NCBI GenBank assembly: GCA_002720095.2
Contig: PBGP02000002.1
Coordinates: 38,434-102,433 of the forward strand
Reading direction: 5' to 3'
DNA from: Methanobacteriota archaeon
GTDB taxonomy: Archaea; Thermoplasmatota; Poseidoniia; Poseidoniales; Poseidoniaceae
DNA: 64,000 bases
This document shows, piece by piece, positions 2,928 to 58,935 of the stretch. How positions within the stretch are numbered: the stretch's first letter is position 1; every line of letters begins with the position of its first letter. The notes beneath the pieces are model-generated. The model saw nothing but the letters and a program-made list of their open reading frames with translations, did no database searches and had not been told where the DNA came from. Made by a program: the position numbers and the translations under genes.

Positions 2928-3344
2928 ATGACTAAATGGCCACCAAGAATTCAAGAAATAATCAATGATTTCTCAGAAGCATTAGATCAAATGGAAAGGT
3001 ATGAAATGTTGTTCGAGTATGCTAGTGAAATTGATGAATTGAAAACTTCAGAATGGTCGAATAAAACACGAGTTGTTGGTTGTCAATCAGAAGCTCATAT
3101 TTTAGTACAGTTCAAGAATAATGGTTTCCACTTAAAGGGTGGCTCTGATTCACAAATAATTCAGGGATTAATGGCCATTACTGCAATTGCTTTAGAAGGC
3201 ATGACTCCCGAGGAGGTTACAGGTTTCTCACCTAATTTTGTATCGGAGATGATGGTTCTTCAAACCTTAACTCCAAATCGAGCTAACGGTTTTTTAAATA
3301 TGTTCATGAGGATCCAAGATGATGCGAGGGAAATGCTAGGGTGA
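2928..3344 (+). CDS. sufE: SufE-like sulfur acceptor protein
   Basis: SufE-like start (PPRIQEIINDFSEALDQMERYEMLFEYA) and acceptor-Cys motif VVGCQSEAHI; follows sufS. Confidence 0.88.
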   Translation: MTKWPPRIQEIINDFSEALDQMERYEMLFEYASEIDELKTSEWSNKTRVVGCQSEAHILVQFKNNGFHLKGGSDSQIIQGLMAITAIALEGMTPEEVTGFSPNFVSEMMVLQTLTPNRANGFLNMFMRIQDDAREMLG

Positions 3345-26446: not shown

Positions 26447-29400
26447 TCAACTATTTTCATTATGCCATTCTTTAAGCTGTTCCATCGTCCAACCATCAGC
26501 AATGTATGACTCAATTAGTTCCTTAGTCCATCCCGGTAAATCTACTGATTCCCCATTTTCATCATACTCAATAGAATTGGATCCATCAAGAATGGGTGCC
26601 GAGAACACTGCTTGTCTTTGTTCATCATCTGAAGTAGTCATTCCAGTGACGGCATCTAAGATTGGTGATGCATACTCTATGCTTTCGTTTTTATCAACAT
26701 AGGGAATTTCCAGTTCTTTTGCTGCGTTATCAACAGCATCGTTTGTTAGATCTGCAAAAATTTCATCAGTGGGGCTATTTCTATTTATGACGAATATAAT
26801 TATAGATAATACGAAGGCTACAGAAGCTATACCCATAAAGAAGAGTAAAATTAGTGATAGTTTGTCATCAGCTGCTGCTCCATTACCCAGTCTATTTTCT
26901 TCATCCTCCTCCTCATTTAGCTTCTCCTGTGATGGAGAACAACCTGTACTTCCAACTATACTTCCAGGAATTGTACCTGGACATTTGTCGTTTGGGTCTA
27001 TGATTCCATCATTGTCAATGTCACTGCATCCATTTTTATCCACGGAAAGGCCCGCTGGTGTATTCAGACATGAATCTGAAATATCAATTACTCCGTCACT
27101 ATCTAAATCATCTTCAGCTATTATTTCACAACCCGTAGAATCAACAATTGTATTAGGCATCGTATCTGCACAAAGATCCAGTATTTGCCCTGAATTATCA
27201 TAATCAAAAATACCATCACTGTCTGAATCAAGAGGGCATCCATTCACATTTAATAAATCCCAGAATTCTTCAGAGGTATTCGGGCAATCGTCATTAATAT
27301 CTGCGACTCCATCACCATCTGTATCAGTTGTAGTATCAACATCAATATCAGTGAGTTCACTTCCACAATTAGTTTCAATTCCATCATCAACGTTATTATT
27401 GTTAGCATCAGCACTTTTCATGGCATTCCTAGCACTTATACCTTCTTTTTGAGCAAAAGCAAGTTCAAGAATATCAAGGATGCAGTCACCATCTGTATCA
27501 CTTGACAAGGGATTACCTGCATTTTCATACTCTTCTAGATTATTTAACCCGTCGCCATCAGGGTCATAAGAGTGTTCGCTAATTGCTGTTCCTGGAATAA
27601 TTGATGTTGTCCTATTGAGTCCAAAAGCTACTTCCCAATAATCAGGTAATCCATCACCATCAGTATCAGTCCATAAATCAAGACGATTCCAGTCTTGCTC
27701 CCAACTAGATAGGTAATAATTGGCTAGGTCAATATTTTTAAAAATTAACCCATATTCTCTGTTTTGCAGTAATGAATTTGATCCCCAGTTCATTGATCCT
27801 ATTAGTAACGTTTCTTTGTCAACAATCATTCCTTTATTGTGAAGCTTGAGAATGCCGTCTCCAGCAGACATCATTACGGCTGCAGTATCTAATCCATAGG
27901 TTTGATTCCAAACCTCATTAAATAAGTTTGTAGCCTGCTGAACTTCAGGTGATTCGTCAGAATAATACTCGTTAATAATTAATCTGATGGCTACTCCTCT
28001 TTCTGCTGCTTTTTCCAATTCACTAACTATGATACTGTCTCCCCAAGGATTAGATTCTTCTGACCACCCATACCACCAATCTAAATCTAAATATTGAAGT
28101 GATAAATAAATAGAAGATTCTGCATCTCTAATTTCTGAGATAATTGAGTCAGCACAATCATCTGGACAGGTAACTAATTTAGTTTCAATATCTCCTGTAA
28201 ATTCTGGAATGTCATACAAGGGAGGGTCTACAGGAAGATTAATTGTTGGTAATCCAGACCATGATTCAGGTTTATCGAAATTTTCTTCATTTGGATCATA
28301 CATTTCAACATGAGGCAAATTTAGATTTTCATCCCATGCCATTCTTTTGAGAAGTTTATCGGCTATATCAGATGAATTGACAAAAATTCCCCACTCCCTG
28401 TTTGCATCTTGACCGAATAAGACAACTTCACCATTCGTTTCGTATTGTTGTCTATTAGGAAAACTGCTGTCCTTGAAGTTTCCACTTCCAATCCAAACTT
28501 CTTGATTGTCTTTTACTATTGCTTTTGCATGATTGTAGGCATATGCGTCAATTTCTCCACCAAACCAAATTATATTAGCACCAGCATTATCTAATTCATA
28601 AAGGATACCTCGGGTGGTTGACAAATCATAGTTTGAATAAGGATTTTTTTCAATTACCACGGTGGTATCTACTCCTCTGTTAATAGCATCTATCAATGAT
28701 TTGGCTAGTTGAAGGCTCGTAAATTCATACATGTGTACATGAAGACTAAATTCGGCATCGTTTAACCAATTAATCATTTGATAAAGACTGTCATTTGGAC
28801 CCAGCATAGGAGTTATTTTAGCATTATTTAACATCTGAAATTCATTACCACAAAATTCGCTTCTTCCAGACTTACTCCAATGCGTCTGCCAATCTGAACT
28901 GGTATTTGTATCTGGTAAATATTCACAACCATTACCCCTCACAAAAATTATTCTACCTTCATTGGAAATTGAATTCGGTAGGTTAATTGCAGTACCATCC
29001 CAGCCGTAAAATGGTGGGCTACTGTCTGGTAAAGCAACAGAATCTATGTAAGTAGAATTTGGATTTTCTAGTGATAGAAGAGAATCATAATGGATGCACG
29101 TTTTTTCCCACCAATCCAAATCGAGTAAACTTGAGTCAATTATATCTAAGATGGAATAATCGATTTCGACACCTCCTTCAGACAATAAATAATCTTGTGG
29201 GTTTCCATTCCAAACCTTTCCTGTCTGAATAATTATTGACTCCTTGGAATCTAATGAAATATCCCTGAAAATTAATTCGTCAATATTTTCTTCGGAGTCA
29301 AAGAAATTTAATCCGTTATAACTTAATTTCCATCCATGCAATGTTCTAGATAAATTATCCATATTAGTTATTTTAACGAAACTCAAGCAATTTTGATTAG

Positions 29401-30994
29401 AATTTGTATTTTTATTTGCTAGAACCTTAGTGATTAAAAATCCAGCATTATCGTCATAGTTGGGGGGTGGTTCAATGTTTGGAGCACCAGGAGTTGGCAT
29501 AAATGGTATCCACGAATCATTAGAAGTCCCGTTTTCATCAGGTATTAATCCTAGACCGATAGTTGAAGAGTTCCAATGAACTGCTTGAACAACTTTTTCT
29601 TCAGGAGTAATTAACCATAAGACTTCGTAGTAATTTTGTATTAAGAAATCAGTGTGATTTCCAATGATTAAGTACTCTCCAGGGTCTAACAAACCTGTGG
29701 AAGAATTACCCCCTTCTACAACATAATTACTAAGTACAATACTGTTCCAACTACCGTTTCTAATTTTCCAACCTTCAATGTTGATTGGAGAGTTTCCACT
29801 GTTAAAAATTTCAATCCATTCTCCGTTAGGATATGATTTATTGTTGTTTGATTCAGGAAATGCCATTACCTCACTAATTATCAAATCAGAAGTACCATTA
29901 ATAGAATCAACTAAGTTTTGAGGATTTTGCCATCCAGGGGTCATATATGGGGGTCTTACCCAAATAGTTTCAGAAGAACCATTTTGTTGTTCCACCAAAC
30001 TAATTCCTGATGGAGCATTAGTCCACTCAGCGGTATGAGCAAGCGAGCCATCAGATCTTTTTAGACTAATTTTATCTCCACTATTTCTTAAACTAAAACT
30101 AGTAGATCCGTTTAAGCTTAGTACTAGGAATTCATTTGATTCTAGAGTCCAATCACCCTCATTTCGTTCATCAAAATTAATAACAAAGTTTAGTAAATTA
30201 TTAGAATTATCACCACTTTCAAGGAACATACCCCATCCAGACAGGTTTACTGAGTTAGATCCATTGTTGTAAAGTTCTATCCATTCACCGTTTGGCCAAG
30301 CTCTAGAGTCATCACCCATTGGGTTGGGCAAGACTTCGTTCACACAAATATCTGTACAAGGTACTGAGTCGGGAATGGTAGAATTTCCATTAGTTTCGCC
30401 TGGAGTTAATTGATTTGTTTCTACCCAATCAGCAGATGAATCCGTAGAATTTTCAATTAATGATACACCTTCTGAGACTGAATAACTCCAAGTAACTACA
30501 TGTACAGAGTTACCATTTTGGTCAACGAGTGATGCAGAACGTGTGGTTGTTGCTCCGTTATTTGAGAGGCAAAAACCGCATCCAGATCCGTCACCATTTC
30601 TGGCAACTACTAAATATCCTCCTGCAGGAATTAGCATGTCTGTTGCACCTTGCGGTTCAACGATTCTAGATGTGTCGAGCTCCATTTCTCTATTCATGTT
30701 ATCTTTTAGAGACCATCCCGTTAAATCTACGGTGTTCTGGCCATTATTGAATAGTTCTACCCATTCTCCTGCTACCCAATTAGATGAACCAACTGCCCCC
30801 GTTTCACTACTTCCTTGGGCATTGACTAATAATTCGTTAATACATATCTCGGAGGAACAAGATGTCGAGCGGCTATCAACATAATTACTTTCGTTCTTAG
30901 TATATTCATCTAAAATTTGTATTGAAATTAAATTTCCTAACATTAACAAACAAATTACTATTGGTATAATCATTAAATTATATTTTTTTATCAT
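26447..30994 (-). CDS. Secreted/anchored multidomain protein: lamin-tail domains, paired PLD (HKD) domains, TSP3-like repeats, C-terminal TM
   Basis: Lamin-tail-like repeats (INELLVN..GEWVELFNNG..DLTGWSLKD; VNEVLPNP..GEWIELYNNG; ISEVMAFP..GEWIEIFNSG; one degenerate); HKD1 HAKAIVKDNQEVWIGSGN; HKD2 HNKGMIVDKETLLIGSMN; DTDGDG repeats; TM LSLILLFFMGIASVAFVLSIIIFV. Confidence 0.88.
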   Translation of the reverse strand: MIKKYNLMIIPIVICLLMLGNLISIQILDEYTKNESNYVDSRSTSCSSEICINELLVNAQGSSETGAVGSSNWVAGEWVELFNNGQNTVDLTGWSLKDNMNREMELDTSRIVEPQGATDMLIPAGGYLVVARNGDGSGCGFCLSNNGATTTRSASLVDQNGNSVHVVTWSYSVSEGVSLIENSTDSSADWVETNQLTPGETNGNSTIPDSVPCTDICVNEVLPNPMGDDSRAWPNGEWIELYNNGSNSVNLSGWGMFLESGDNSNNLLNFVINFDERNEGDWTLESNEFLVLSLNGSTSFSLRNSGDKISLKRSDGSLAHTAEWTNAPSGISLVEQQNGSSETIWVRPPYMTPGWQNPQNLVDSINGTSDLIISEVMAFPESNNNKSYPNGEWIEIFNSGNSPINIEGWKIRNGSWNSIVLSNYVVEGGNSSTGLLDPGEYLIIGNHTDFLIQNYYEVLWLITPEEKVVQAVHWNSSTIGLGLIPDENGTSNDSWIPFMPTPGAPNIEPPPNYDDNAGFLITKVLANKNTNSNQNCLSFVKITNMDNLSRTLHGWKLSYNGLNFFDSEENIDELIFRDISLDSKESIIIQTGKVWNGNPQDYLLSEGGVEIDYSILDIIDSSLLDLDWWEKTCIHYDSLLSLENPNSTYIDSVALPDSSPPFYGWDGTAINLPNSISNEGRIIFVRGNGCEYLPDTNTSSDWQTHWSKSGRSEFCGNEFQMLNNAKITPMLGPNDSLYQMINWLNDAEFSLHVHMYEFTSLQLAKSLIDAINRGVDTTVVIEKNPYSNYDLSTTRGILYELDNAGANIIWFGGEIDAYAYNHAKAIVKDNQEVWIGSGNFKDSSFPNRQQYETNGEVVLFGQDANREWGIFVNSSDIADKLLKRMAWDENLNLPHVEMYDPNEENFDKPESWSGLPTINLPVDPPLYDIPEFTGDIETKLVTCPDDCADSIISEIRDAESSIYLSLQYLDLDWWYGWSEESNPWGDSIIVSELEKAAERGVAIRLIINEYYSDESPEVQQATNLFNEVWNQTYGLDTAAVMMSAGDGILKLHNKGMIVDKETLLIGSMNWGSNSLLQNREYGLIFKNIDLANYYLSSWEQDWNRLDLWTDTDGDGLPDYWEVAFGLNRTTSIIPGTAISEHSYDPDGDGLNNLEEYENAGNPLSSDTDGDCILDILELAFAQKEGISARNAMKSADANNNNVDDGIETNCGSELTDIDVDTTTDTDGDGVADINDDCPNTSEEFWDLLNVNGCPLDSDSDGIFDYDNSGQILDLCADTMPNTIVDSTGCEIIAEDDLDSDGVIDISDSCLNTPAGLSVDKNGCSDIDNDGIIDPNDKCPGTIPGSIVGSTGCSPSQEKLNEEEDEENRLGNGAAADDKLSLILLFFMGIASVAFVLSIIIFVINRNSPTDEIFADLTNDAVDNAAKELEIPYVDKNESIEYASPILDAVTGMTTSDDEQRQAVFSAPILDGSNSIEYDENGESVDLPGWTKELIESYIADGWTMEQLKEWHNENS

Positions 30995-42028: not shown

Positions 42029-43282
42029 ATGGGCAAAAATATATTGGTAATAGGTGGTGGGGGCAGAGAGCACTCTATCTCGTTAGGTCTCAAAAAAAGT
42101 GCTAAGGTAAATGAGATCCATATAGCACCTGGTAATGCTGGGACGTTGAACGTAGGGAAAAACCATGAAATTGACATTTTAGATAACGAACAGGTAATAA
42201 ATCTGGTTAATGAATTTAGCATAGATTTAGTAATAATTGGCCCTGAAGCTCCGTTAGTAAATGGATTATCAGATAGATTAAGCCTGGAGAAAGTACTTTG
42301 TTTTGGCCCTTTTTCAAGTGGTGCTAAATTAGAGGGTTCTAAGCAGTATGCCAAGGAGATAATGAAAAAATTAAATATTCCCACCGCAAATTCAACAGTA
42401 ATCACAAATTCATCCGATATAGAGAAAATTTTGGATGAATATGGGCCAAATTGGGTCATAAAAAGAGATGTACTAGCTGGTGGGAAGGGAGTTACAGTCA
42501 CGAGTGAAAGACATCTTGCAGTGAATTCGATACTAGAAGGACTTAATCTAGATGGTTTTGTTCTAGTCGAAGAATTTCTTGAGGGTGAAGAAGCAAGCAT
42601 GTTAGTAATCATGGATGAATCTGGCTATGTTTGTTTACCTGCAAGTCAAGACCACAAAAGACTTACGGATGGTGATAAAGGACCCAATACAGGGGGAATG
42701 GGCGCGTATGCACCTGCACCAATAATATCTAAATCTGTAACAAATAAGATTCTTGAAAGAATAGTTCAGCCCATGCATATGTGGTTATCTTCATGTGAAG
42801 ATAAATACAGAGGGTGTTTGTATGTCGGTTTAATGATTGACAAATCTGGTGATCCTTCTGTCGTTGAATATAATGTTCGTTTTGGAGATCCAGAGACTCA
42901 AGTGACAATACCATTAATTTCCTCTGATTTATACGATTTATTTTCTTATACTGCTGAAGGTAGAATTAAAGATTTAGATGTGACTTTTTATGAAAAGCAT
43001 GCTTTAACAGTGGTATTGGCATCAGAAGGTTATCCAAAAAAACCAGTAATTAACAGAAGGATTTCAGGTCTTAAAGATGACTCAGAAAATATTGTAGTTC
43101 ACCATGCAGGAACTAAGATTGATGATAACGGAAATTTGGTCTCAAACGGGGGAAGAGTATTATCTGTTACAGGTATTTCTGATTCACTTTCAGAATCTGC
43201 GAGGATATCTTATGAGTTAATCAATAATATCACTCTTGAAGGTTCACATTTTAGAAAAGACATAGGTTTCAGAACACTTTGA
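42029..43282 (+). CDS. purD: Phosphoribosylamine--glycine ligase
   Basis: NILVIGGGGREHSISLGL, DLVIIGPEAPLVNGL, VVEYNVRFGDPETQ. Confidence 0.96.
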   Translation: MGKNILVIGGGGREHSISLGLKKSAKVNEIHIAPGNAGTLNVGKNHEIDILDNEQVINLVNEFSIDLVIIGPEAPLVNGLSDRLSLEKVLCFGPFSSGAKLEGSKQYAKEIMKKLNIPTANSTVITNSSDIEKILDEYGPNWVIKRDVLAGGKGVTVTSERHLAVNSILEGLNLDGFVLVEEFLEGEEASMLVIMDESGYVCLPASQDHKRLTDGDKGPNTGGMGAYAPAPIISKSVTNKILERIVQPMHMWLSSCEDKYRGCLYVGLMIDKSGDPSVVEYNVRFGDPETQVTIPLISSDLYDLFSYTAEGRIKDLDVTFYEKHALTVVLASEGYPKKPVINRRISGLKDDSENIVVHHAGTKIDDNGNLVSNGGRVLSVTGISDSLSESARISYELINNITLEGSHFRKDIGFRTL

Positions 43283-43336: not shown

Positions 43337-43353
43337 CATAGCCTTAGGCTATG
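43337..43353. promoter_or_regulatory. Perfect hairpin CATAGCC-tta-GGCTATG just upstream of the AglB start
   Basis: 7-bp perfect stem, 3-nt loop; overlaps the ORF-track ATG at 43351, which is therefore probably not the start. Confidence 0.5.
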
Positions 43354-43368
43354 CGTGAGGGAATTAAA

Positions 43369-46300
43369 ATGGAAAACGAAAATGAAGAGACAATCGCCGT
43401 CTCATTTGGCCGATTTGGTGACGTTGGAAGGCTTCTAATTGCACCTTTTGCTATATTAATTGCACTTTTCGGTGGAATGTTATTCGGCGTAAATATCGAC
43501 TTGAATGATTTCGTGGTTCCTCTCGTAGTACTTGGTTGTGCTTCAATGATGGCCACGGCTCCAATTTTTGGAGAAAAATTCATCGGAGACAAATTATCTT
43601 CTAATCTAATAGTTGGTTTATATCTTATCTTAGCAATTGTTGTTAGTTCAATTGTAGCGAACATCTTTGGTGGAGTTGTTGGATTTTTGTTTACATTGAC
43701 ATCAATCATTGGATATATTTTTGTTAGGTTAAACAAAAACGAGGAGTTTGTTATCTTGACATTCTTCTCAATTGGTTTTTATGCATCATTGGGTGTTGCT
43801 GGAGCCGTAGAATCAATGCTTCCTGAAATTGATTACACTGCTACATACACTAATGAATTAAATGAACTAAGGGGAGTCACAGCAGAAATGTTCTTTACTT
43901 TTTTATTCATAATGACATCGTTAGGAATCATTTTTGCTATTTTGCAAAGGAATATTTTACAATCTCCTGGTTCAGGTTCTTGGTTTAAGTATCTTCCAAA
44001 CGTTGAAGAGGGATATAAGCCTGTAGGGCCGTTATTGGTCGCATTATCTATGTGGTCATTTGCGCATATTTTGACATTAATTCATTTCGCCTTATTAGGT
44101 GGAATTTCGGACGAAGTAGTTCAGGATCTGGGAATGACTGGAGAACAGATTAGAATGTCTGGTCAATATCTTTCGGTTTGGTGGGCGTTATTTACAGGAA
44201 TAATCGCAATAATCACAGCATTCTTTTATTCAGAGAGATGGTTTACTAGATCGATGTTGATTAGTGCGACTTGGATACTATATTCATTTGGAAGGTTCCA
44301 AGAACAAGGGTATTTTGAACAGTTCATTAGTCCGAACGAAGATGGGGCAAGATGGATAGATTTACTCAGCGAAGGCATTGGAATGTGGTTATGGCTTGGG
44401 ATCACTTTCTTTACATTTGTACTCGTATTTTACTTCTCAACTCATGAGAAATACGGCAACAAAATGAACAGGACCATAGGTGATATTGGTAATGCTAGGG
44501 CATTTTGGAATGAAAATTGGGCTTCGGTTTTAATTGCTGGAGCTTTCGCGTTTGGTCTGACAATCAGAGTTGTTTGGAATGTACTTCCAGCAATGAATGC
44601 AATAGGTACAGGAGGATGGGATTTAACTGGTGGATCGGACCCATGGTACATGAAAAGGGCGATTGACTACATTATTGCAGAAAGAGCACATTTCATATTC
44701 GATGCAGATAGAGCGTATCCTATTGGTGACATAAACCCGAGACCTCCTTTATTTACGTGGAGTCTTGCTTTAGGAGGATTGATTCTAGCCCCAATCTTAG
44801 GAATTTCAGCTGAAAACGCCGTATGGTGGAGTATTGGTGCATTGCCTGCAATTTATGGAGCATTGATAATTTTCCCAGTAGCAGGCATGGCTAGAGAAGT
44901 ATTCGGTAAAGGTGCAGGAGTTTTAGCTGCTTGGTTAATAGCGTTCATGCCAGGACATGTTAGTCACACAACATTTGCTTTAGCTGATCACGATGCATTC
45001 GTATTACTATTTGCTACAGTAGGTTTTTATTACTATATTATGTCTATGAAAAATATTAACGAAGATAAAATTTTAATTAAATCAGGCTGGAATCCTACTA
45101 ATCTGCTACTAGGATTCTCTAAGGTCTGGGAAAATCAAAGATTGGCAACTTCTTACTCAATCCTATCTGGTGTTTCTTTTGCTATTGTCGCGTTAGCTTG
45201 GAAAGGTTTCATTTACGCTCCATCTATTATTTTTGTATTTTTCATGATACAGATTCTGTTTAACTTGTTTAGACGTAGAGATAGTATGGCAATTACAGTG
45301 TTAACTGTCACTATGTTACTGGCACTGTGGTTAACCTCGCTTCCGTTTTACATGCATCCAGAATTAGGATTGTTACTAAATGGAGAATTTCAGGCTATGT
45401 TTTATATCTCAGGATTAATATTGGTATCTGGGTACATTGTTTGCTCTGCTAGGGATAAACCATGGCTATTGGTAATTGGAACAGGCACTGTTCTAGTAGT
45501 CATACCACTATTTTTGGTATGGTTACAGTGGTTACTAGGATATTCTGACGCAGGTTCAACTCTGTTTACTGGTGGAGGTTATTTCTCAAAAAATAAAATT
45601 TTTGGTACCATTGCTGAAGCACAAGCTCCATCCAGAGGATTGCTATTTGGAAGTTTTGGAGCTATAATTTTTGTTTCTGCTTTGGCACGAGGATTCGGAC
45701 TATCATGGTCTGGGCTGCGACATAGAAAAGTTCCTGAATTATTACTCGCAGTTTGGGTTTTATTGGCTTCATACATGGCATGGTCTGCAGGTAGATTCGT
45801 ATACAATGCTACACCAGTAATGGCCATAGTTTCAGCCGGAGCTTTTTCGTGGTTGTGGGCTAATTCAGGTTGGGACGGGTTAGTGAAACAGTGGAGAAGA
45901 ATGGGAATTAACACGCCGGGTGCTAGATTTACCTCTGGAAGGAAAGTATTGTTCAAAAGCCCAGGATTTATTGCGATTTTCATGATTTTCATAATGGTGT
46001 TTTCTCAACATGCAACATATGGTCTCGATGCGGCTATTCCTAGAGGTAGCGATAAAGCTAGTGATGTTGACGAAGAATTGTACAATTTAATGCCTGACTT
46101 TTTGAGGTGGAGTAATATTATTGATGGGACTGCTTACGAAGATGTTCAGGGTTATTGGTTCCTAAATTCATTTGGCCCAGGTTTTAATGATTATTATTGG
46201 AATGCAGCCTATGATTGGCTTTCAGAACAGGATAAAATCCATACGGGAGTTAATGACGAAGTATCATGTAATGAACTTGAAGGTAATTGGAATTCAGAAA

Positions 46301-49300
46301 CTAAGACATGTGGGATGAAATTTTCAGATAAACCTGCGTTTGTATCTTGGTGGGATTATGGATTTCAAGCAATGTCACAAGGTGATCATCCAACAGTTGC
46401 GGATAATTTCCAGACTGGAATTCCAACAGCTGGTAACATGCTTCTAGCTCGTAATCAAGACGATGTAGTTGCAATGTTCATCACTAGATTAGGAATAGGT
46501 GATGTAGTTTGGAGTGGAGGCAATCACTATTCAAATTCCTTCAAATCAATAATTGAAAGTAATCTTGAAACACCTCAATATGAAGAATTCTATTTAGTGA
46601 CGAGGGGATTAACTCAAGAAATAGCCAAAGAAAGAATGTTTGAGGTTTACGAATGGACCGAGGCCACGACTAATCAAGGGGTATTGGCTTTATCTAGAGG
46701 ATATGTTGTTGAAGATGGAGTAAAAACCGATAATTACGTTTATAGAATTTATGAAGGAGAAAAGCAACTCGGAAATGATTATCTGACTGAGGCAGAAGCA
46801 AAATCAGCCTTCGAAGATCGAGTAGCCAACAGAGATGTAATTACAGAATATTTCGACGAGGACTCTGGACAGACATTTGGAGCAAGTCATTATGTGGTTG
46901 GGGATTATTGGTATACATCTGACATCATCGAGAAGTTCGATGATGCTGGAACATCAATCCACAGACAGAATTCTCAAATTGCATTAGCAACGCAAGTTTT
47001 GACAGGCTCTCTAGATTCTGAACAAATTAATGATTTGTACAACGAAATAATTCAATTAGATATCTATGAAGTTCCAGACAGTGAAGGAGCTCCCGGTCAG
47101 ACAATTACGAGAAATCATGAGATATCTTATTTTGCAATAGATACTCGACTTTATCCTCTTGGAGGAGGGGCGTACTTAGATACATCTTTCAATAGGAAAA
47201 ACCCTACAGGGATATTTTATGCTCCAACAATCCTTTCTGGACAAGATCCAGCGCATTTTATGAATACCATTTACGAAACGCAAAGAGGTACTGAGAGTAT
47301 AATTGAGCGAACAGCTGAGGATTTTAATGAACAATATAAAATGGATGTTTTGAGAAGTCAAAGCGGTGGAGATGTTGAAATAATAGAGTTGGTAGATGTA
47401 AGATACGACCATTCAGAATCATTTTTTGATACTATGCTAGCGAGAACATATGTAGGCTATGGAGCTTCAGATTTAGGTCTCACTGACTACACTGGAACAG
47501 TATCGGCCACCCCTAAAACAATGTTATCTTCCGCATCTTCAGGAACTCCTGGCTCTGCTTTAGAATCTGCATGGCCTCTTCCTGGAGCAATGATGAATCA
47601 CTTTGTAATCGCAAATTGGTATGACGAAAGAGGAGATTTCGAGAATTTTGGACTAGGAGAAGCTAATTTTGGCGTTAAGGTGATGAAATATTATGCAGGA
47701 GCAGAATTATGTGGTTCAGTAACTGTCCCAGAATTAGATACACCTATTGCAGGGGCCACATTACTTATCGAAAGAGACGGATTCAGTGGTGAAGGTACTG
47801 AAGATCTTGATAACAGGACTTATTGGATTCCTATTGGAACAACTACTACTGATTCTGGTGGAAATTATTGTTTTACAGCACCGGCTGGTAGAATTAGAGT
47901 TACAGCTTTAACAGGAGAATTTGATAGTTCTGCAGATTTAATCACAATACAATCTGGTGAACTTGATGTATATTCAATGAATTTAGATATCATTGGACAG
48001 AATACAGGTGAACGAGTTGTCAATCCAATTACGGGGTTACTATCAGAAGTATCAGGAATGATGTGGTTAGGTGAAAATGAGATAAATATTACTTCTGAGC
48101 AGGCTGAAAGAAAACCAAATGCCGAGGTTTCCAAGTTAGACATTGAATTAGAAACATCATCTGCTTCAGGTGTCGTAAATTGGGAAGGTGAAGGACAATT
48201 CTCTGGATTACCCCTAGTTGAAACTGAATTCGTACTGCAGAATGTTTGGAATGAAGAAATATCTTATAATGTTAGCACGATAAACAAAACAGTTTCTGGG
48301 GAGGATTTAGTAATTGAGGGGGAAGGTATTGCTGTTTACACAGAAACTGATGGTGTTGTACAATCGCTAAATAATGAGAACCTCAGAGTTTCAAACTTTA
48401 TTGGGAATTACTCGAGATATTTGTCTACTGGTCAATCATACACAGGTAATGGAACATGGAGTGGTAAGGGAATTCTTGAAGCTTCATGGTTAGAAGATAC
48501 AAATATAAGCGAATGTATCAATTCGACAGTTCCGAATGGTTCAGAAGTATGTCTGGGTGTTGATGGTAAATATTTGATAAATGGAACATTAGTTGCAAGT
48601 GGAAGATTTACTGCAGATGAATTGACTGAACTAACAACATTTTTGGATAATGCAACATTTGAAGCGTCAGGAAAATTCGTAGGAACGGGAGTCTTTGAAG
48701 GTACAGCTCAGTATTCTGGTGTTGGAGATTACAGTGGAGATATGGTTGTTCCTGGCACATTTTATGCCAACGATATTGCCCCTGGTGAGTATAAAATGTA
48801 TGCAATATTTAACAACGGAAGAACATCAGACGTTATTGAAGAAATTACTGTAGGTTTAGAACACACAGGAGATCTTGAATTATCTCTAACTGGTTTACAA
48901 GTATCTGGTTTAATTTTCGATGAATCAGGAGATGCAGTAAATGCTACTGTCGAAATTATCGATTTGGACCTAGATACACAAACATGTACTGAAGTTAACC
49001 TCAATAATGACGGAATTTGGGTAGACAGTACTCAATCTTTATTCAGTCCTGCTATTAATTGTCTAAAATTTAGTTCAGGAGAAGAAGGTAATGTCAGTAT
49101 AGGGCCTCTATCACCAGGTAATTACTCACTTCGAGTAGATTTAGATGGTGATTTGCAGTATGAATTAAACTCCACTCTAAATGAGCAAAATAATCAACTG
49201 ACATTTATTGGTGAAATATTGGAACATGGAGATGTAGAATTTTCTATTAGTCCAGTGGTTATTAACGAATCCAATATTAATCAACCAGATATAATTGATG

Positions 49301-52300
49301 TTAGTAACACTTTAGTCACATTTACTTCAGTAGATGATGGCACAGTTGTAAATATTTCATCAGATGAAAATGGTGTTGTAAATGCAGAACTGCCACTTGG
49401 TGATTGGATAATGAAAAGTAAAAGCGGTAATGATTTACTACTTTGGCAGGAATTCAATCTAAATAGTGAAAATTTAAATCTTGAGGATATTAAATTCTCC
49501 CGTTCTATTCTGGTGCAAGGTTCGTTAGAAACCCAAGTTCGTGATGACAATAATCAACTAGTACTTCAGCCTTTAAATGGTATTTCAGTTAAATTTAGAA
49601 GTGGAAGTATACAGGTGATTGTGGAATCAGACAATAATGGTGAGTTCGATTTAGAATTACCTTCTGGAATGGAGTTTGACGTAACTACTGAAACTCCAGA
49701 CGGTATGGTTTCTGCAACTAACGTGAACATTTCAAAAGATATGGATAATGTTAATCTCATAATTTTCGCAAAGCAAAGTGTGAGCTGGTATCATTCGGGT
49801 AAAGTACTCTTAAATCCGAATAATGTGACTTATGATAACTCAATCCCTGATTTCGAAAATTTTGAGGTTTATGCGACATATCTTGATAGTGGAGGAGATG
49901 AATTTTTAGATTCATTCATTGGAGTCACTTGGGTATCCGAGGTAGATGACTCTGGAAGATTTGAGTTCTTACTCCCTCTAGGGAATTATTCATTGATGGC
50001 AAGTGAGGAAATTTTACAGGTCTCTGAGACCATTTATACCTCAAACAGCACTGTGGGTGACTCATTGGATTGGAATTTAGAAGCTAATCCTTTACCTGTA
50101 AATGTTGAAATTAGGACATTTATTGATGACAATGGAGACCAATCATTTGATAATGGTACTCCTGTGAATATTGACTTTAGAATAGTCCCAACAGATTCGA
50201 GCCAAGATCAAATAAACATTACTTCAGAATTATTCGATGAAGATGGTATACTAAACGTTGACCTTCCGTTTGGCGAATATTTCATAGAAATGGATACACA
50301 AAATATCGATAACGGAAGTGAATTTGATACATTATTTGTCTCAACACCCGCTCCAATTAAGATAGGTATATCTGGTATTGATGAGCCTATTGATTTAGGT
50401 TTAGTTCCTACTTGGAAGCTTGATGTAGAGCTTGTAGATCAAAAATTTGAACCACTGGATAATGTATCCGTAATATTTGAAAGTTTAGACGAAAATTCAA
50501 TATCAACTGATGTGATACTTTATGCAGATGAAAATGGTACAATTTTGGAATACGTTCGTTCTGGGAATTACTCGGTTACAACAAGATTAATTGATGTTGA
50601 AGGAACATCACAAATCTTTAACGCTAAGATAAGTATTGACGAGAATCCTGATAATAGAACTTTTGTATGGAGAACTTTAGAGGTAGCTAATTTAAATTTG
50701 ACGTTGATAGATACTAATTTAGCTGAAAATAATTCTTTACCACCTTTAAGTCTCATAGCGGTATCTAATGATGGTCTTCATGAAGTAAATTTACCATTCA
50801 ACAATGAATCTGGTTTTGTCAGCGCACAGTTATATCCTGGTAATTGGAATCTAGAATTAAACCACACTGATTCGAAAGATGGTCTGAGATGGGTTTTAGA
50901 AAATTTTGAGTTGGGAGAGCTTTCAGCGAATGAGACAATAGTTACTAATGTCGAGTTAAACCGATTTGTAGAGGTCAGTGGTACTGTATTCTGGGATTTC
51001 AATGAAGATGGTGAATATCAATCAAATGAAGCTCTAGGGAATTCAGAAGTTAGGATCGAATCTGATGGCTTCGAGACACTGAATATGACGACTGATGAGG
51101 AGAATGGAAATTGGAACTTTTATGTACCAGCATCAAAAGATTATTCAATTAATGTTACAAGAACAGGTTTCAATTACAATAATTCATTATTTGTAAAGGT
51201 GCTGAACACTTCTATAAACAGTAATTCTGAAGATTATTCAACGGATATTTCTTTGGATGCAGATAACGTAACAGTATCAGGAAGAATTGACCTTCAGTAT
51301 GGTTTTGAAAGTATCTCTAATCAAATCTACAGTGATTTAATGATTGAATTAATTCCAGCAGCAGATGAAGGGTACGAGAGAGATAGTGTAGAAATAATAT
51401 TTGAAGAAAATGATGAGGGAGAACTTATTTGGAGTGCAGTTGTAGAACCTGGAAAATGGATTTTACATGCTGAAGCGACAAATTTCCACATGGTTGTTTA
51501 TGATTCATTTGAGGCAGAAATCATTGATGGCGCGGAATATAATACTACTCTGAAAGCAGGAGGTTACGTCCCAATAAGTACTAGATGGACTGACTTTTCT
51601 GGAGATGAAAGGAATATTACTACCTTACAATCTACAAATTCAACTATCACAGATATAGTTTATCTGACTATGTCATTTAATGATGCAAAATGGAATATTT
51701 CTCTTGCTGAAGAAATTGAAACATACTTAGTTCCGGCAGGTACATTACAAATTTCAGGGGAATTTACAGTCCTGGAAATGGGAATGGAGATGGAATATAC
51801 AGGTGATGTAATTACAGGAGCATCATCTCCTGGTTTAGCTGATGACGGGACACTTTCGACCGTTACTTCTGCTGAAGCAGTCATAGAGTTTAATAGAATT
51901 TTAGTACATAAAATCGATTATTCAGTGAATCAAATAATATCCAATGACGAAGAACATGAATTCAATGATGGAGATATGATTAATGCGAAAATAAAAGATA
52001 TTAACGGTGATGGTATTACTGATACTTACCATGATATTTTAATTAAGTTAAATTTAGAATACGCAGGTAATTTAGCTAAAGAGAACTATACGTTTACAGC
52101 ATCAGTTGCGGGTGCAGATAGTGAGTTCTGGCAAATTGACTTCGAAATCAGTGAAGATGAGTTTGATACCTCGAAAAACATGACATTTGGAATTTCAGAA
52201 TCACTGAACAGTAGTGAAATCATTATGAAAATCAAATTACCCGATGGTGAAAATTCTATTTCATATGATACTGGACACAATGTTAGAGTTATCGCTACAT

Positions 52301-53115
52301 CTGAGACAGGTGAATCAAGTAACTATGACTTAAAGGTTCATATACCTCAAGAATATTCAATTGAAGCATCAGCTCCATATCAAGTAGGTATCACATCTGG
52401 AGGAGGTTCCAGTTCTTTTGATGTTTCAGTAAAGAATCTTGGAAATGGAGATGATAACATCCAGTTTGATATAGATAAATCTGATCTACCTAGTGATTGG
52501 ACAGTTTCTCAGCCTCAGCCAAGAATAATTCCTCCTAATGGCACCTCTGAAGTAGGAATTTCAGTCATTATGCCTGAAAATACTTTTGAAGGACAATATG
52601 TTTTACACGTTAACGTAACGAGTGAATCAGGAGAAACAGAGGTTATTGATGTAATAGTGTTAGTATCTAAAGCGAAGTTAAGAATGGATACTCCAAGTAT
52701 GGGCGCTGGTGGCGGGGTTGTACGTCAGCCTGTTGACTTTTCGATTGTAGTACACAATGATGGGTTAATCACCGCTGAAGGAGTAACTATTGAAGGTTAT
52801 TTAGTAGAACTAAATATCAGTGCAGTTTCAATGCCTGTCAATATTTTACCAGGTCAAAATGAAACAGTTACTGTTCTATTTGATACTAATGAAATTGTAG
52901 CTGGTGATTATAAGTTTGAGTTTACTCTAGATGCAGGAACTACTCCATTAGATAATGAATCAAATTTAGAAGTTGAGCTAACAAAGGTTAAATTCTCAGT
53001 TCAAGATTCTGCAGGAAGTGGGAATATTGTACCTATCATTATTATCTGTATTTTTGCAATCGGAATTTATTCATTTGTTAGAAGCAGAAGAACAGGTACA
53101 GGCCCAGGATTCTAA
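43369..53115 (+). CDS. aglB: STT3/AglB-family oligosaccharyltransferase with N-terminal extra membrane domain and giant sequon-rich C-terminal ectodomain plus terminal TM
   Basis: GGSDPWYMKRAIDYI and ADHDAF acidic motifs, WWDYG (FVSWWDYGFQAM); many CarboxypepD_reg/SdrB-like modules; C-terminal IVPIIIICIFAIGIYSFVRSRR. Start at ATG 43369 behind GAGG. Confidence 0.9.
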   Translation: MENENEETIAVSFGRFGDVGRLLIAPFAILIALFGGMLFGVNIDLNDFVVPLVVLGCASMMATAPIFGEKFIGDKLSSNLIVGLYLILAIVVSSIVANIFGGVVGFLFTLTSIIGYIFVRLNKNEEFVILTFFSIGFYASLGVAGAVESMLPEIDYTATYTNELNELRGVTAEMFFTFLFIMTSLGIIFAILQRNILQSPGSGSWFKYLPNVEEGYKPVGPLLVALSMWSFAHILTLIHFALLGGISDEVVQDLGMTGEQIRMSGQYLSVWWALFTGIIAIITAFFYSERWFTRSMLISATWILYSFGRFQEQGYFEQFISPNEDGARWIDLLSEGIGMWLWLGITFFTFVLVFYFSTHEKYGNKMNRTIGDIGNARAFWNENWASVLIAGAFAFGLTIRVVWNVLPAMNAIGTGGWDLTGGSDPWYMKRAIDYIIAERAHFIFDADRAYPIGDINPRPPLFTWSLALGGLILAPILGISAENAVWWSIGALPAIYGALIIFPVAGMAREVFGKGAGVLAAWLIAFMPGHVSHTTFALADHDAFVLLFATVGFYYYIMSMKNINEDKILIKSGWNPTNLLLGFSKVWENQRLATSYSILSGVSFAIVALAWKGFIYAPSIIFVFFMIQILFNLFRRRDSMAITVLTVTMLLALWLTSLPFYMHPELGLLLNGEFQAMFYISGLILVSGYIVCSARDKPWLLVIGTGTVLVVIPLFLVWLQWLLGYSDAGSTLFTGGGYFSKNKIFGTIAEAQAPSRGLLFGSFGAIIFVSALARGFGLSWSGLRHRKVPELLLAVWVLLASYMAWSAGRFVYNATPVMAIVSAGAFSWLWANSGWDGLVKQWRRMGINTPGARFTSGRKVLFKSPGFIAIFMIFIMVFSQHATYGLDAAIPRGSDKASDVDEELYNLMPDFLRWSNIIDGTAYEDVQGYWFLNSFGPGFNDYYWNAAYDWLSEQDKIHTGVNDEVSCNELEGNWNSETKTCGMKFSDKPAFVSWWDYGFQAMSQGDHPTVADNFQTGIPTAGNMLLARNQDDVVAMFITRLGIGDVVWSGGNHYSNSFKSIIESNLETPQYEEFYLVTRGLTQEIAKERMFEVYEWTEATTNQGVLALSRGYVVEDGVKTDNYVYRIYEGEKQLGNDYLTEAEAKSAFEDRVANRDVITEYFDEDSGQTFGASHYVVGDYWYTSDIIEKFDDAGTSIHRQNSQIALATQVLTGSLDSEQINDLYNEIIQLDIYEVPDSEGAPGQTITRNHEISYFAIDTRLYPLGGGAYLDTSFNRKNPTGIFYAPTILSGQDPAHFMNTIYETQRGTESIIERTAEDFNEQYKMDVLRSQSGGDVEIIELVDVRYDHSESFFDTMLARTYVGYGASDLGLTDYTGTVSATPKTMLSSASSGTPGSALESAWPLPGAMMNHFVIANWYDERGDFENFGLGEANFGVKVMKYYAGAELCGSVTVPELDTPIAGATLLIERDGFSGEGTEDLDNRTYWIPIGTTTTDSGGNYCFTAPAGRIRVTALTGEFDSSADLITIQSGELDVYSMNLDIIGQNTGERVVNPITGLLSEVSGMMWLGENEINITSEQAERKPNAEVSKLDIELETSSASGVVNWEGEGQFSGLPLVETEFVLQNVWNEEISYNVSTINKTVSGEDLVIEGEGIAVYTETDGVVQSLNNENLRVSNFIGNYSRYLSTGQSYTGNGTWSGKGILEASWLEDTNISECINSTVPNGSEVCLGVDGKYLINGTLVASGRFTADELTELTTFLDNATFEASGKFVGTGVFEGTAQYSGVGDYSGDMVVPGTFYANDIAPGEYKMYAIFNNGRTSDVIEEITVGLEHTGDLELSLTGLQVSGLIFDESGDAVNATVEIIDLDLDTQTCTEVNLNNDGIWVDSTQSLFSPAINCLKFSSGEEGNVSIGPLSPGNYSLRVDLDGDLQYELNSTLNEQNNQLTFIGEILEHGDVEFSISPVVINESNINQPDIIDVSNTLVTFTSVDDGTVVNISSDENGVVNAELPLGDWIMKSKSGNDLLLWQEFNLNSENLNLEDIKFSRSILVQGSLETQVRDDNNQLVLQPLNGISVKFRSGSIQVIVESDNNGEFDLELPSGMEFDVTTETPDGMVSATNVNISKDMDNVNLIIFAKQSVSWYHSGKVLLNPNNVTYDNSIPDFENFEVYATYLDSGGDEFLDSFIGVTWVSEVDDSGRFEFLLPLGNYSLMASEEILQVSETIYTSNSTVGDSLDWNLEANPLPVNVEIRTFIDDNGDQSFDNGTPVNIDFRIVPTDSSQDQINITSELFDEDGILNVDLPFGEYFIEMDTQNIDNGSEFDTLFVSTPAPIKIGISGIDEPIDLGLVPTWKLDVELVDQKFEPLDNVSVIFESLDENSISTDVILYADENGTILEYVRSGNYSVTTRLIDVEGTSQIFNAKISIDENPDNRTFVWRTLEVANLNLTLIDTNLAENNSLPPLSLIAVSNDGLHEVNLPFNNESGFVSAQLYPGNWNLELNHTDSKDGLRWVLENFELGELSANETIVTNVELNRFVEVSGTVFWDFNEDGEYQSNEALGNSEVRIESDGFETLNMTTDEENGNWNFYVPASKDYSINVTRTGFNYNNSLFVKVLNTSINSNSEDYSTDISLDADNVTVSGRIDLQYGFESISNQIYSDLMIELIPAADEGYERDSVEIIFEENDEGELIWSAVVEPGKWILHAEATNFHMVVYDSFEAEIIDGAEYNTTLKAGGYVPISTRWTDFSGDERNITTLQSTNSTITDIVYLTMSFNDAKWNISLAEEIETYLVPAGTLQISGEFTVLEMGMEMEYTGDVITGASSPGLADDGTLSTVTSAEAVIEFNRILVHKIDYSVNQIISNDEEHEFNDGDMINAKIKDINGDGITDTYHDILIKLNLEYAGNLAKENYTFTASVAGADSEFWQIDFEISEDEFDTSKNMTFGISESLNSSEIIMKIKLPDGENSISYDTGHNVRVIATSETGESSNYDLKVHIPQEYSIEASAPYQVGITSGGGSSSFDVSVKNLGNGDDNIQFDIDKSDLPSDWTVSQPQPRIIPPNGTSEVGISVIMPENTFEGQYVLHVNVTSESGETEVIDVIVLVSKAKLRMDTPSMGAGGGVVRQPVDFSIVVHNDGLITAEGVTIEGYLVELNISAVSMPVNILPGQNETVTVLFDTNEIVAGDYKFEFTLDAGTTPLDNESNLEVELTKVKFSVQDSAGSGNIVPIIIICIFAIGIYSFVRSRRTGTGPGF

Positions 53116-53138
53116 TTTAAGATATTAGAGGTATATTG

Positions 53139-54365
53139 GTGAGTAGAGAATTGGAACATTTAGAATTGATTCCTGAGTCAAATGAACCTAGGATTTTAAC
53201 TGCAGTTGATCCACAAACATTGCACGATGATGATGATGAATTTCGTACGACATCTACTGGATGGCCGACTGATAGATTAGCGTTAATACATGTCAGCAAT
53301 AGAAGAATTAGACCCTCAGGTTTTCTACTATTTTTGACGATGTTAATTGTAACTTGGATATTATTACAACCAATTTATTCTATTTTAGATGAAGTACAAT
53401 CTCCAAATTCTGATTGGGCTTATCAATATGTCGGAATACGACAAGCACAACAACTTGGATTATATGGTGGTGGAATAAATGTATGTGTCGTAGATACTGG
53501 AGTTGATTTAGTTCACCCTGATTTGGAACACCTCTCAAAAACAATACTCTACAAGGACTTCGTTTCTGATAGTATTGAACCTGTAGACTATGCAGAAGAT
53601 GGTCATGGAACGTTAATAGTTGGATTGCTTGCAGCAAACGGTAGTCTGGTAGGTTCTGCACCTGGAGTCAAACTAATGGTTGCTAGTGCATTGGGTGAAG
53701 ATGAAATGGGTAGTGATGAAGCAGTTGCTAATGCAGTAGATTGGTGCAAGTCTAACAGAGCAGATATAATTAGTCTTTCTTTAGGAGGTAGTCAAGATAT
53801 CGAAGATCCTTTGGATAATTTGGCTGTTAAATCTGTTCAAGATGCTATAAATTTAGGAATCTATGTTGTAGCAGCTGCTGGAAACGATGGTGGAATTAAT
53901 GATGATGGACGTGTTTCAGTGCCTGCGAACGTACCAGGTGTAATTTCAGTAGGTGCTCTTAATCCTGATGGTTCTTTGTGGGAAAAAAGTAGTAGGGGTG
54001 ATAATCTGGCAGGTAACGGAGAAAACCCCCGAGAATCTCCCAATAAAAAACCAGAAATTACTGCTCCAGGAGTAAATGTAGTATCTACTTGGATTGATGG
54101 AAAATTCTCATCGAGTACTGGTACTAGTGATTCTACTGTATTCGTGACTGGAGCTCTCGCTTTGGCATTAGAATCTAACTCCCAATTAAAGCCAACTTGG
54201 GACAACACGGATAGGAGTAATTGTATTCAGGTTGTAAAAAAAGCGCTTATGGATAGTGCAAATCCGTTTGAAGCTCAGGCAATACCTCATGATGACAGAT
54301 ATGGTTATGGAGCCTTAAACACAATAGGATTGATTGAACTTTTGGGGAATGTTGAGGATTGTTAA
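53139..54365 (+). CDS. Membrane-anchored S8 (subtilisin-like) serine protease
   Basis: Asp VCVVDTGVDLVHPDL, His DGHGTLIVGLLAA, oxyanion VAAAGNDGG, Ser GTSDSTVFVTGALAL; N-terminal TM GFLLFLTMLIVTWILLQPIY. GTG start at 53139 (or TTG at 53136). Confidence 0.9.
   Translation: MSRELEHLELIPESNEPRILTAVDPQTLHDDDDEFRTTSTGWPTDRLALIHVSNRRIRPSGFLLFLTMLIVTWILLQPIYSILDEVQSPNSDWAYQYVGIRQAQQLGLYGGGINVCVVDTGVDLVHPDLEHLSKTILYKDFVSDSIEPVDYAEDGHGTLIVGLLAANGSLVGSAPGVKLMVASALGEDEMGSDEAVANAVDWCKSNRADIISLSLGGSQDIEDPLDNLAVKSVQDAINLGIYVVAAAGNDGGINDDGRVSVPANVPGVISVGALNPDGSLWEKSSRGDNLAGNGENPRESPNKKPEITAPGVNVVSTWIDGKFSSSTGTSDSTVFVTGALALALESNSQLKPTWDNTDRSNCIQVVKKALMDSANPFEAQAIPHDDRYGYGALNTIGLIELLGNVEDC

Positions 54366-54432: not shown

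Positions 54433-58935
<4,503 letters not shown>

Follow-up and report, generated by a model that had tools for sequence, protein, structure and literature searches.

The window, that is, the whole 64,000-bp stretch of DNA analysed here, belongs to a draft Poseidoniales genome (23 contigs, 82% complete) and contains one long open frame in which the motifs of an oligosaccharyltransferase (OST) precede a very large extracellular part. This raises the question of whether the OST and its ectodomain are indeed a single protein and, if so, what such an ectodomain would be good for. Among the archaea that live at the ocean surface, Poseidoniales (Marine Group II) are probably the most common.

The aglB frame and its catalytic core

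The open frame occupies positions 43351-53115 (3,254 aa) and codes for 3,248 aa when counted from the ATG at 43369, the start used for all AglB residue numbers below. The gene and the features of its enzyme part, all on the plus strand, are:

43369..53115, +, aglB, coding for the fused oligosaccharyltransferase of 3,248 aa (frame, domain matches, orthologues)
43369..44478, +, N-terminal 10-TM module, aa 1-370, predicted N-in (AF2, positive-inside pattern)
44491..46038, +, STT3 multi-TM domain, aa 375-890 (Pfam STT3, PDB 3waj)
44635..44649, +, SDPWY, aa 423-427, first acidic motif, EL1 (motif inspection)
44983..44997, +, ADHDA, aa 539-543, second acidic motif (motif inspection)
45607..45630, +, TIAEAQAP, aa 747-754, TIxE motif, EL5 (motif inspection)
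46039..47688, +, C-terminal catalytic core and linker, aa 891-1440 (AglB_core-like, sub-threshold)
46348..46362, +, WWDYG, aa 994-998 (motif inspection)

A sequence-only reading of this DNA had proposed one gene for an OST and its ectodomain, and the frame is indeed single and intact, with all the catalytic motifs, about 1,800 extracellular residues and a C-terminal anchor. SDPWY and WWDYG, which that reading had placed near residues 429 and 1000, lie at the positions listed, the offset being explained by its count from an earlier start, and both motifs are kept in 35/35 orthologues. The Pfam STT3 domain (PF02516) is matched at 5e-15 (56.3 bits, above the cut-off of 24.5), while the AglB core family PF22627 gives 16.8 bits against a cut-off of 27, with 27.7 and 28.9 bits in the relatives L065 and L079. 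The NCBIfam model archaeo_STT3 (TIGR04154, archaeosortase A system-associated STT3) matches at 5e-52 with 177.3 bits, under its curated cut-off of 450, and the window's genome encodes an ArtA-family protein. In the PDB, the match is Archaeoglobus fulgidus AglB (3waj, 5.6e-14), the alignment beginning at residue 375. This enzyme and TIGR04154 share with the window's AglB the STT3 TM domain and the acidic, TIxE and WWDYG motifs, but the 875-aa chain of 3waj has neither the 10-TM N-terminal module nor the anchored ectodomain of about 1,800 aa. Only one STT3 was found in the window's genome at its 82% completeness. Judged by its domain matches and motifs, the protein is the STT3/AglB-type oligosaccharyltransferase of the cell.

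The N-terminal module

The module of residues 1-370 that precedes the STT3 domain had been overlooked in the earlier reading. AlphaFold2 predicts about ten long helices (pLDDT 80, pTM 0.81), and in 35 sequences the mean number of Lys and Arg residues per loop is 0.9-3.8 for loops assigned to the inside and 0.0-0.6 for those assigned to the outside, so the predicted topology is N-in with ten helices and the STT3 motifs facing outside. The module was matched in 24 Poseidoniales genomes and in none of the sampled other genomes of the phylum. A Pfam search gave no match, the PDB yielded nothing at E ≤ 0.001 either by sequence or by fold, and no paralogue was found in the 8 genomes searched. It is conceivable that this order-specific module docks AglB to a membrane partner, e.g. 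the translocon or the lipid-linked-sugar machinery, and we consider such a docking role probable.

The ectodomain

The C-terminal side of the protein contains the following features:

47713..47961, +, CarboxypepD_reg domain, aa 1449-1531 (Pfam, 4e-16)
48289..48738, +, beta-rich insert, aa 1641-1790 (Cys conservation, structure prediction)
48751..52068, +, array of transthyretin/Ig-like beta-sandwich modules with most of the sequons (alignment, AF2, fold matches)
52090..52638, +, choice-of-anchor-T/NEW3-like Ig domain, aa 2908-3090 (NCBIfam, 5e-12, below cut-off)
53005..53112, +, C-terminal TM anchor, aa 3213-3240, followed by a basic cytosolic tail with a final Phe

The AF2 model, which covers the N-terminal two thirds of the ectodomain, is all-beta (pLDDT 84), in line with the Ig/carboxypeptidase-regulatory-like modules proposed earlier; since its pTM is only 0.44, the overall shape may be either a rod or an arch. 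The second anchor noticed at the extreme C-terminus corresponds to the TM at 3213-3240, and a C-terminal TM is found in all 35 orthologues. The top structural neighbours are sortase-type pilins and adhesins, namely TIE protein, BcpA, RrgB, SpaA and Cna B repeats, and the model thus supports a surface-type, "beads-on-a-string" shaft. Pilins and adhesins of this type (BcpA, RrgB, SpaA, SdrD, Cna) are likewise surface shafts of CnaB/TTR-like beads, but they are bacterial and wall-anchored and have no enzyme fused to them. A single-sequence phmmer search with one ectodomain gave no matches.

The beta-rich insert has long predicted strands and belongs to the most conserved stretches of the ectodomain, its cysteines C1716 and C1728 being invariant in 35/35 orthologues; in the profile-profile comparison it did not align to other Thermoplasmatota ectodomains. 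The cytosolic tail (53089-53112, +) has a final Phe in 34/35 orthologues (..APF, ..KRF, ..PGF).

Conservation in Poseidoniales

The AglB core was detected in 56 of 57 Poseidoniales genomes, mostly within frames of about 3,000-3,300 aa. The 35 unbroken orthologues come from both Poseidoniales families and are 3,124-3,324 aa in length, the ectodomain being 1,838-1,919 aa long with a single exception, while the mean identity of the shaft between genera is only 21-38%.

It might be suspected that an assembly or annotation error fused two genes, given the draft state of the window's genome and the fact that the frame is split in G014, the sole single-contig genome of the window's family in the sample. 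The split, however, is a 15-N filler, and both halves align contiguously to one relative. Moreover, unbroken long forms are present in the single-contig genomes G087, G114 and G194 and in the chromosome records CP070748 and CP070736. With 35 full-length orthologues free of any break and the split in G014 being a filler, assembly error was rejected, and we regard an artefact of this kind as extremely improbable. Independent assemblies, which the earlier reading had named as a check, therefore bear the fusion out, and at 12 AglB loci of short or other form no adjacent gene encodes the missing ectodomain, as two separate genes would have it. The architecture is a real, conserved and unusual Poseidoniales-wide variant of a known enzyme family.

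Sequons and N-glycosylation

The ectodomain had been estimated by eye to have roughly 50 N-x-S/T sequons, and 50 of the 52 sequons of AglB were indeed counted after residue 1440. Shuffled ectodomains contain 25.6 ± 4.5 sequons, and the observed number was reached in 0 of 2,000 shuffles. For the ectodomains of the 35 Poseidoniales proteins the sequon O/E is 2.41 (above 1 in 35/35) and that of the reversed motif S/T-x-N is 1.01, while the enzyme part of six AglB proteins gives a sequon O/E of 0.62. In sampled proteins, split by a simple hydropathy rule, the secreted ones of the window's genome have a value of 1.21 and the cytosolic ones 0.93, the corresponding values for genome G014 being 1.70 and 1.05, which means that sequon enrichment is not unique to AglB. 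About 9% of the sequons coincide with a structural turn motif of the domain itself.

Within the genus, conservation is 93% for sequon Asn vs 52% for other Asn, and in 11 sister pairs the figures are 75% and 50%; whole sequons are retained in 72% of cases in the sister pairs and the reversed motif in 37%. At N2262 the sequon is kept in 34/35 orthologues and at N1573 in 33/35. These comparisons support the view that the shaft has an excess of sequons on which purifying selection acts, and that in this it goes beyond an average secreted protein encoded by the window's genome; they also provide good comparative evidence that the shaft would really be N-glycosylated.

Since AglB is the only STT3 found in the genome, it most likely glycosylates its own ectodomain. 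H. volcanii AglB (HVO_1530), also an archaeal OST, is itself N-glycosylated with an AglB-dependent glycan, only two glycosites having been found (PMC8241124). From glycosylation by AglB, transfer in cis is a further step that we infer. The idea of a cis substrate, put forward in the sequence-only reading, gains from the age of the fusion, the selected sequons and the single STT3, but it does not hold as a universal purpose: in some lineages the same stalk shows no sequon enrichment (O/E of 0.98 in L198, 0.96 in L158, 0.95 in L190 and 1.01 in L065), so glycosylation, or a substrate role, is not its only and universal purpose.

Gene neighbourhood

The genes flanking aglB are:

42029..43282, +, purD, upstream neighbour of aglB (Pfam GARS)
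53136..54365, +, membrane-anchored S8 subtilase (Pfam Peptidase_S8, 7e-43)

The gene purD was recognised upstream of aglB in many Poseidoniales loci, and it also adjoins aglB, on the opposite strand, in three loci of family f30 (L067, L068, L075), an old neighbourhood.

The subtilase gene, which starts 20 bp downstream of aglB and was overlooked in the earlier reading, has a homologue directly downstream of aglB in 33/34 other Poseidoniales loci and in none of the non-Poseidoniales loci examined. Its product has a single TM, at the N-terminus, and a triad of the D120/H157/S331 type, the D, H and GTS motifs being mostly conserved. Full-length orthologues adjoin aglB in G000, G014, G136 and G047, and genomes outside Poseidoniales have S8 proteins that are only about 30% identical, or none. 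The subtilase can be considered a candidate functional partner of AglB.

Such a kept neighbourhood, together with the TM segment and the largely conserved triad motifs of the protease and its distant or missing counterparts outside the order, would fit a polyprotein in which AglB glycosylates the shaft and the adjacent subtilase cuts, leaving the enzyme and a surface coat glycoprotein separate when mature; one published paper on Poseidoniales, moreover, makes no mention of an S-layer gene. Yet the cleavage site is hypothetical, the C-terminal TM would in any case retain the shaft on the cell after cleavage, and this protease is missing from non-Poseidoniales genera that do carry the shaft. The genomes also encode, elsewhere, a second subtilase paralogue, which implies other roles for the family, and the neighbourhood alone does not identify AglB as the substrate. 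We therefore hold such a polyprotein to be rather unlikely. Its stronger version, that in Poseidoniales the OST itself is the principal glycoprotein of the surface (an S-layer equivalent), a self-glycosylating polyprotein with a cis-glycosylated, subtilase-matured shaft, seems very unlikely; the features seen that would suit an S-layer protein are the shaft fold and the sequons.

Two further proteins of the window deserve mention. The product of 54433-58935 (+) and another protein of the window's genome (L240, C17) have a common C-terminal motif, ..EAYIQQLISQGY..ARxYAxQ.xDRF, which is a candidate sorting or attachment tail. The 1,515-aa protein encoded at 26447-30994 (-) combines a signal-like segment at its N-terminus with three lamin-tail domains and with domains resembling phospholipase D, and is possibly an extracellular hydrolase.

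Distribution and evolution in Thermoplasmatota

Many families of Thermoplasmatota have anchored AglB proteins of 2.0-2.7 kaa, also in single-contig genomes, with Aciduliprofundum, DHVE2 and Methanomassiliicoccales among the named MAGs. Like the window's AglB, they have STT3, a CarboxypepD_reg array, a C-terminal TM and a homologous ectodomain, but the full forms sampled are 2.0-2.7 kaa long and without the N-terminal module, some families have shorter, unanchored forms, the subtilase was not found adjacent, and the beta insert is unaligned. H. volcanii AglB is far shorter than the window's protein. The earlier statement that archaeal AglB proteins are usually far shorter thus stands for the characterised enzymes and fails for Thermoplasmatota, in which an anchored AglB of 2.0-3.3 kaa is the usual one.

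With the exception of the beta-rich insert, the Poseidoniales ectodomain can be aligned across 837 columns to those of other phylum members (hhalign E 3e-47), showing, at the level of sequence profiles, that the ectodomains are homologous and that the shaft is common to most of the phylum, with varying sequon content. In the AglB core tree, which is unrooted, the unanchored short forms fall into two groups nested within the anchored forms; this fits a shaft lost or shortened twice, gains being possible as well. Gene fission in the short-form families was rejected, as the missing part is absent from the neighbouring genes of the examined genomes. The fusion is supported as both real and old.

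The AglB of genome G061 (L079, family f7) has a PGF-CTERM-like C-terminus (..KGMPGFEALGLVSSLAAAALLLGRRRRWAG), and an ArtA-family protein is present; the sorting-signal models match this tail only below cut-off.

Resemblance to NOMO

A similar layout, an Ig-like TTR array followed by a C-terminal TM near the translocon, is known from NOMO of the BOS complex, a rod with 12 Ig-like domains (PMC12262048, PMC8327139), which, however, is a separate protein without an OST core. By analogy, the shaft could be a chaperone or presentation scaffold at the translocon exit, its glycans being incidental shielding. The profile of 22 phylum ectodomains matches human NOMO2 at 2.9e-33, far above all else, all five sub-threshold NOMO_5th matches in 99 genomes fall within AglB frames, and the stalk is kept where sequons are at chance level. 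Nevertheless, a control profile built from non-AglB archaeal CarboxypepD_reg repeats matches NOMO2 equally well (1.2e-37 vs 2.4e-36). The sequence match is therefore not specific, homology to NOMO was rejected as fold-generic, and the resemblance is one of layout only. As a scaffold role would also leave the sequon selection unexplained, it appears unlikely.

Proposed role of the shaft

The explanation that we favour as a whole, with reasonable though far from full confidence, is an AglB-type OST with a shaft that is probably a self-glycosylated, glycan-shielded spacer. AglB would keep a normal STT3 core, its C-terminal side being extended into the transthyretin/Ig-like shaft, which would re-enter the membrane via the C-terminal helix. 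The N-in topology predicted for AglB would place its active site on the outer face of the membrane together with the shaft, and AglB itself would probably glycosylate many of the approximately 50 shaft sequons, either in cis or between neighbouring copies. The resulting glycan-shielded stalk or arch may keep AglB and the clients of the enzyme at a distance from the outer coat.

No description of an OST with an anchored shaft was found in the open-access literature searched, most subscription journals lying outside it. The view of archaeal AglB as having a modest C-terminal domain is revised, since in Thermoplasmatota it usually has a membrane-anchored shaft, and if the proposed explanation is true, AglB would exemplify in nature an OST with a built-in substrate. 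The literature found says little about the cell envelope of these marine archaea, which are abundant and uncultured, and an OST joined to a selected, sequon-rich shaft gives searches of existing metaproteomes a concrete target, namely a candidate surface glycoprotein of very large size.
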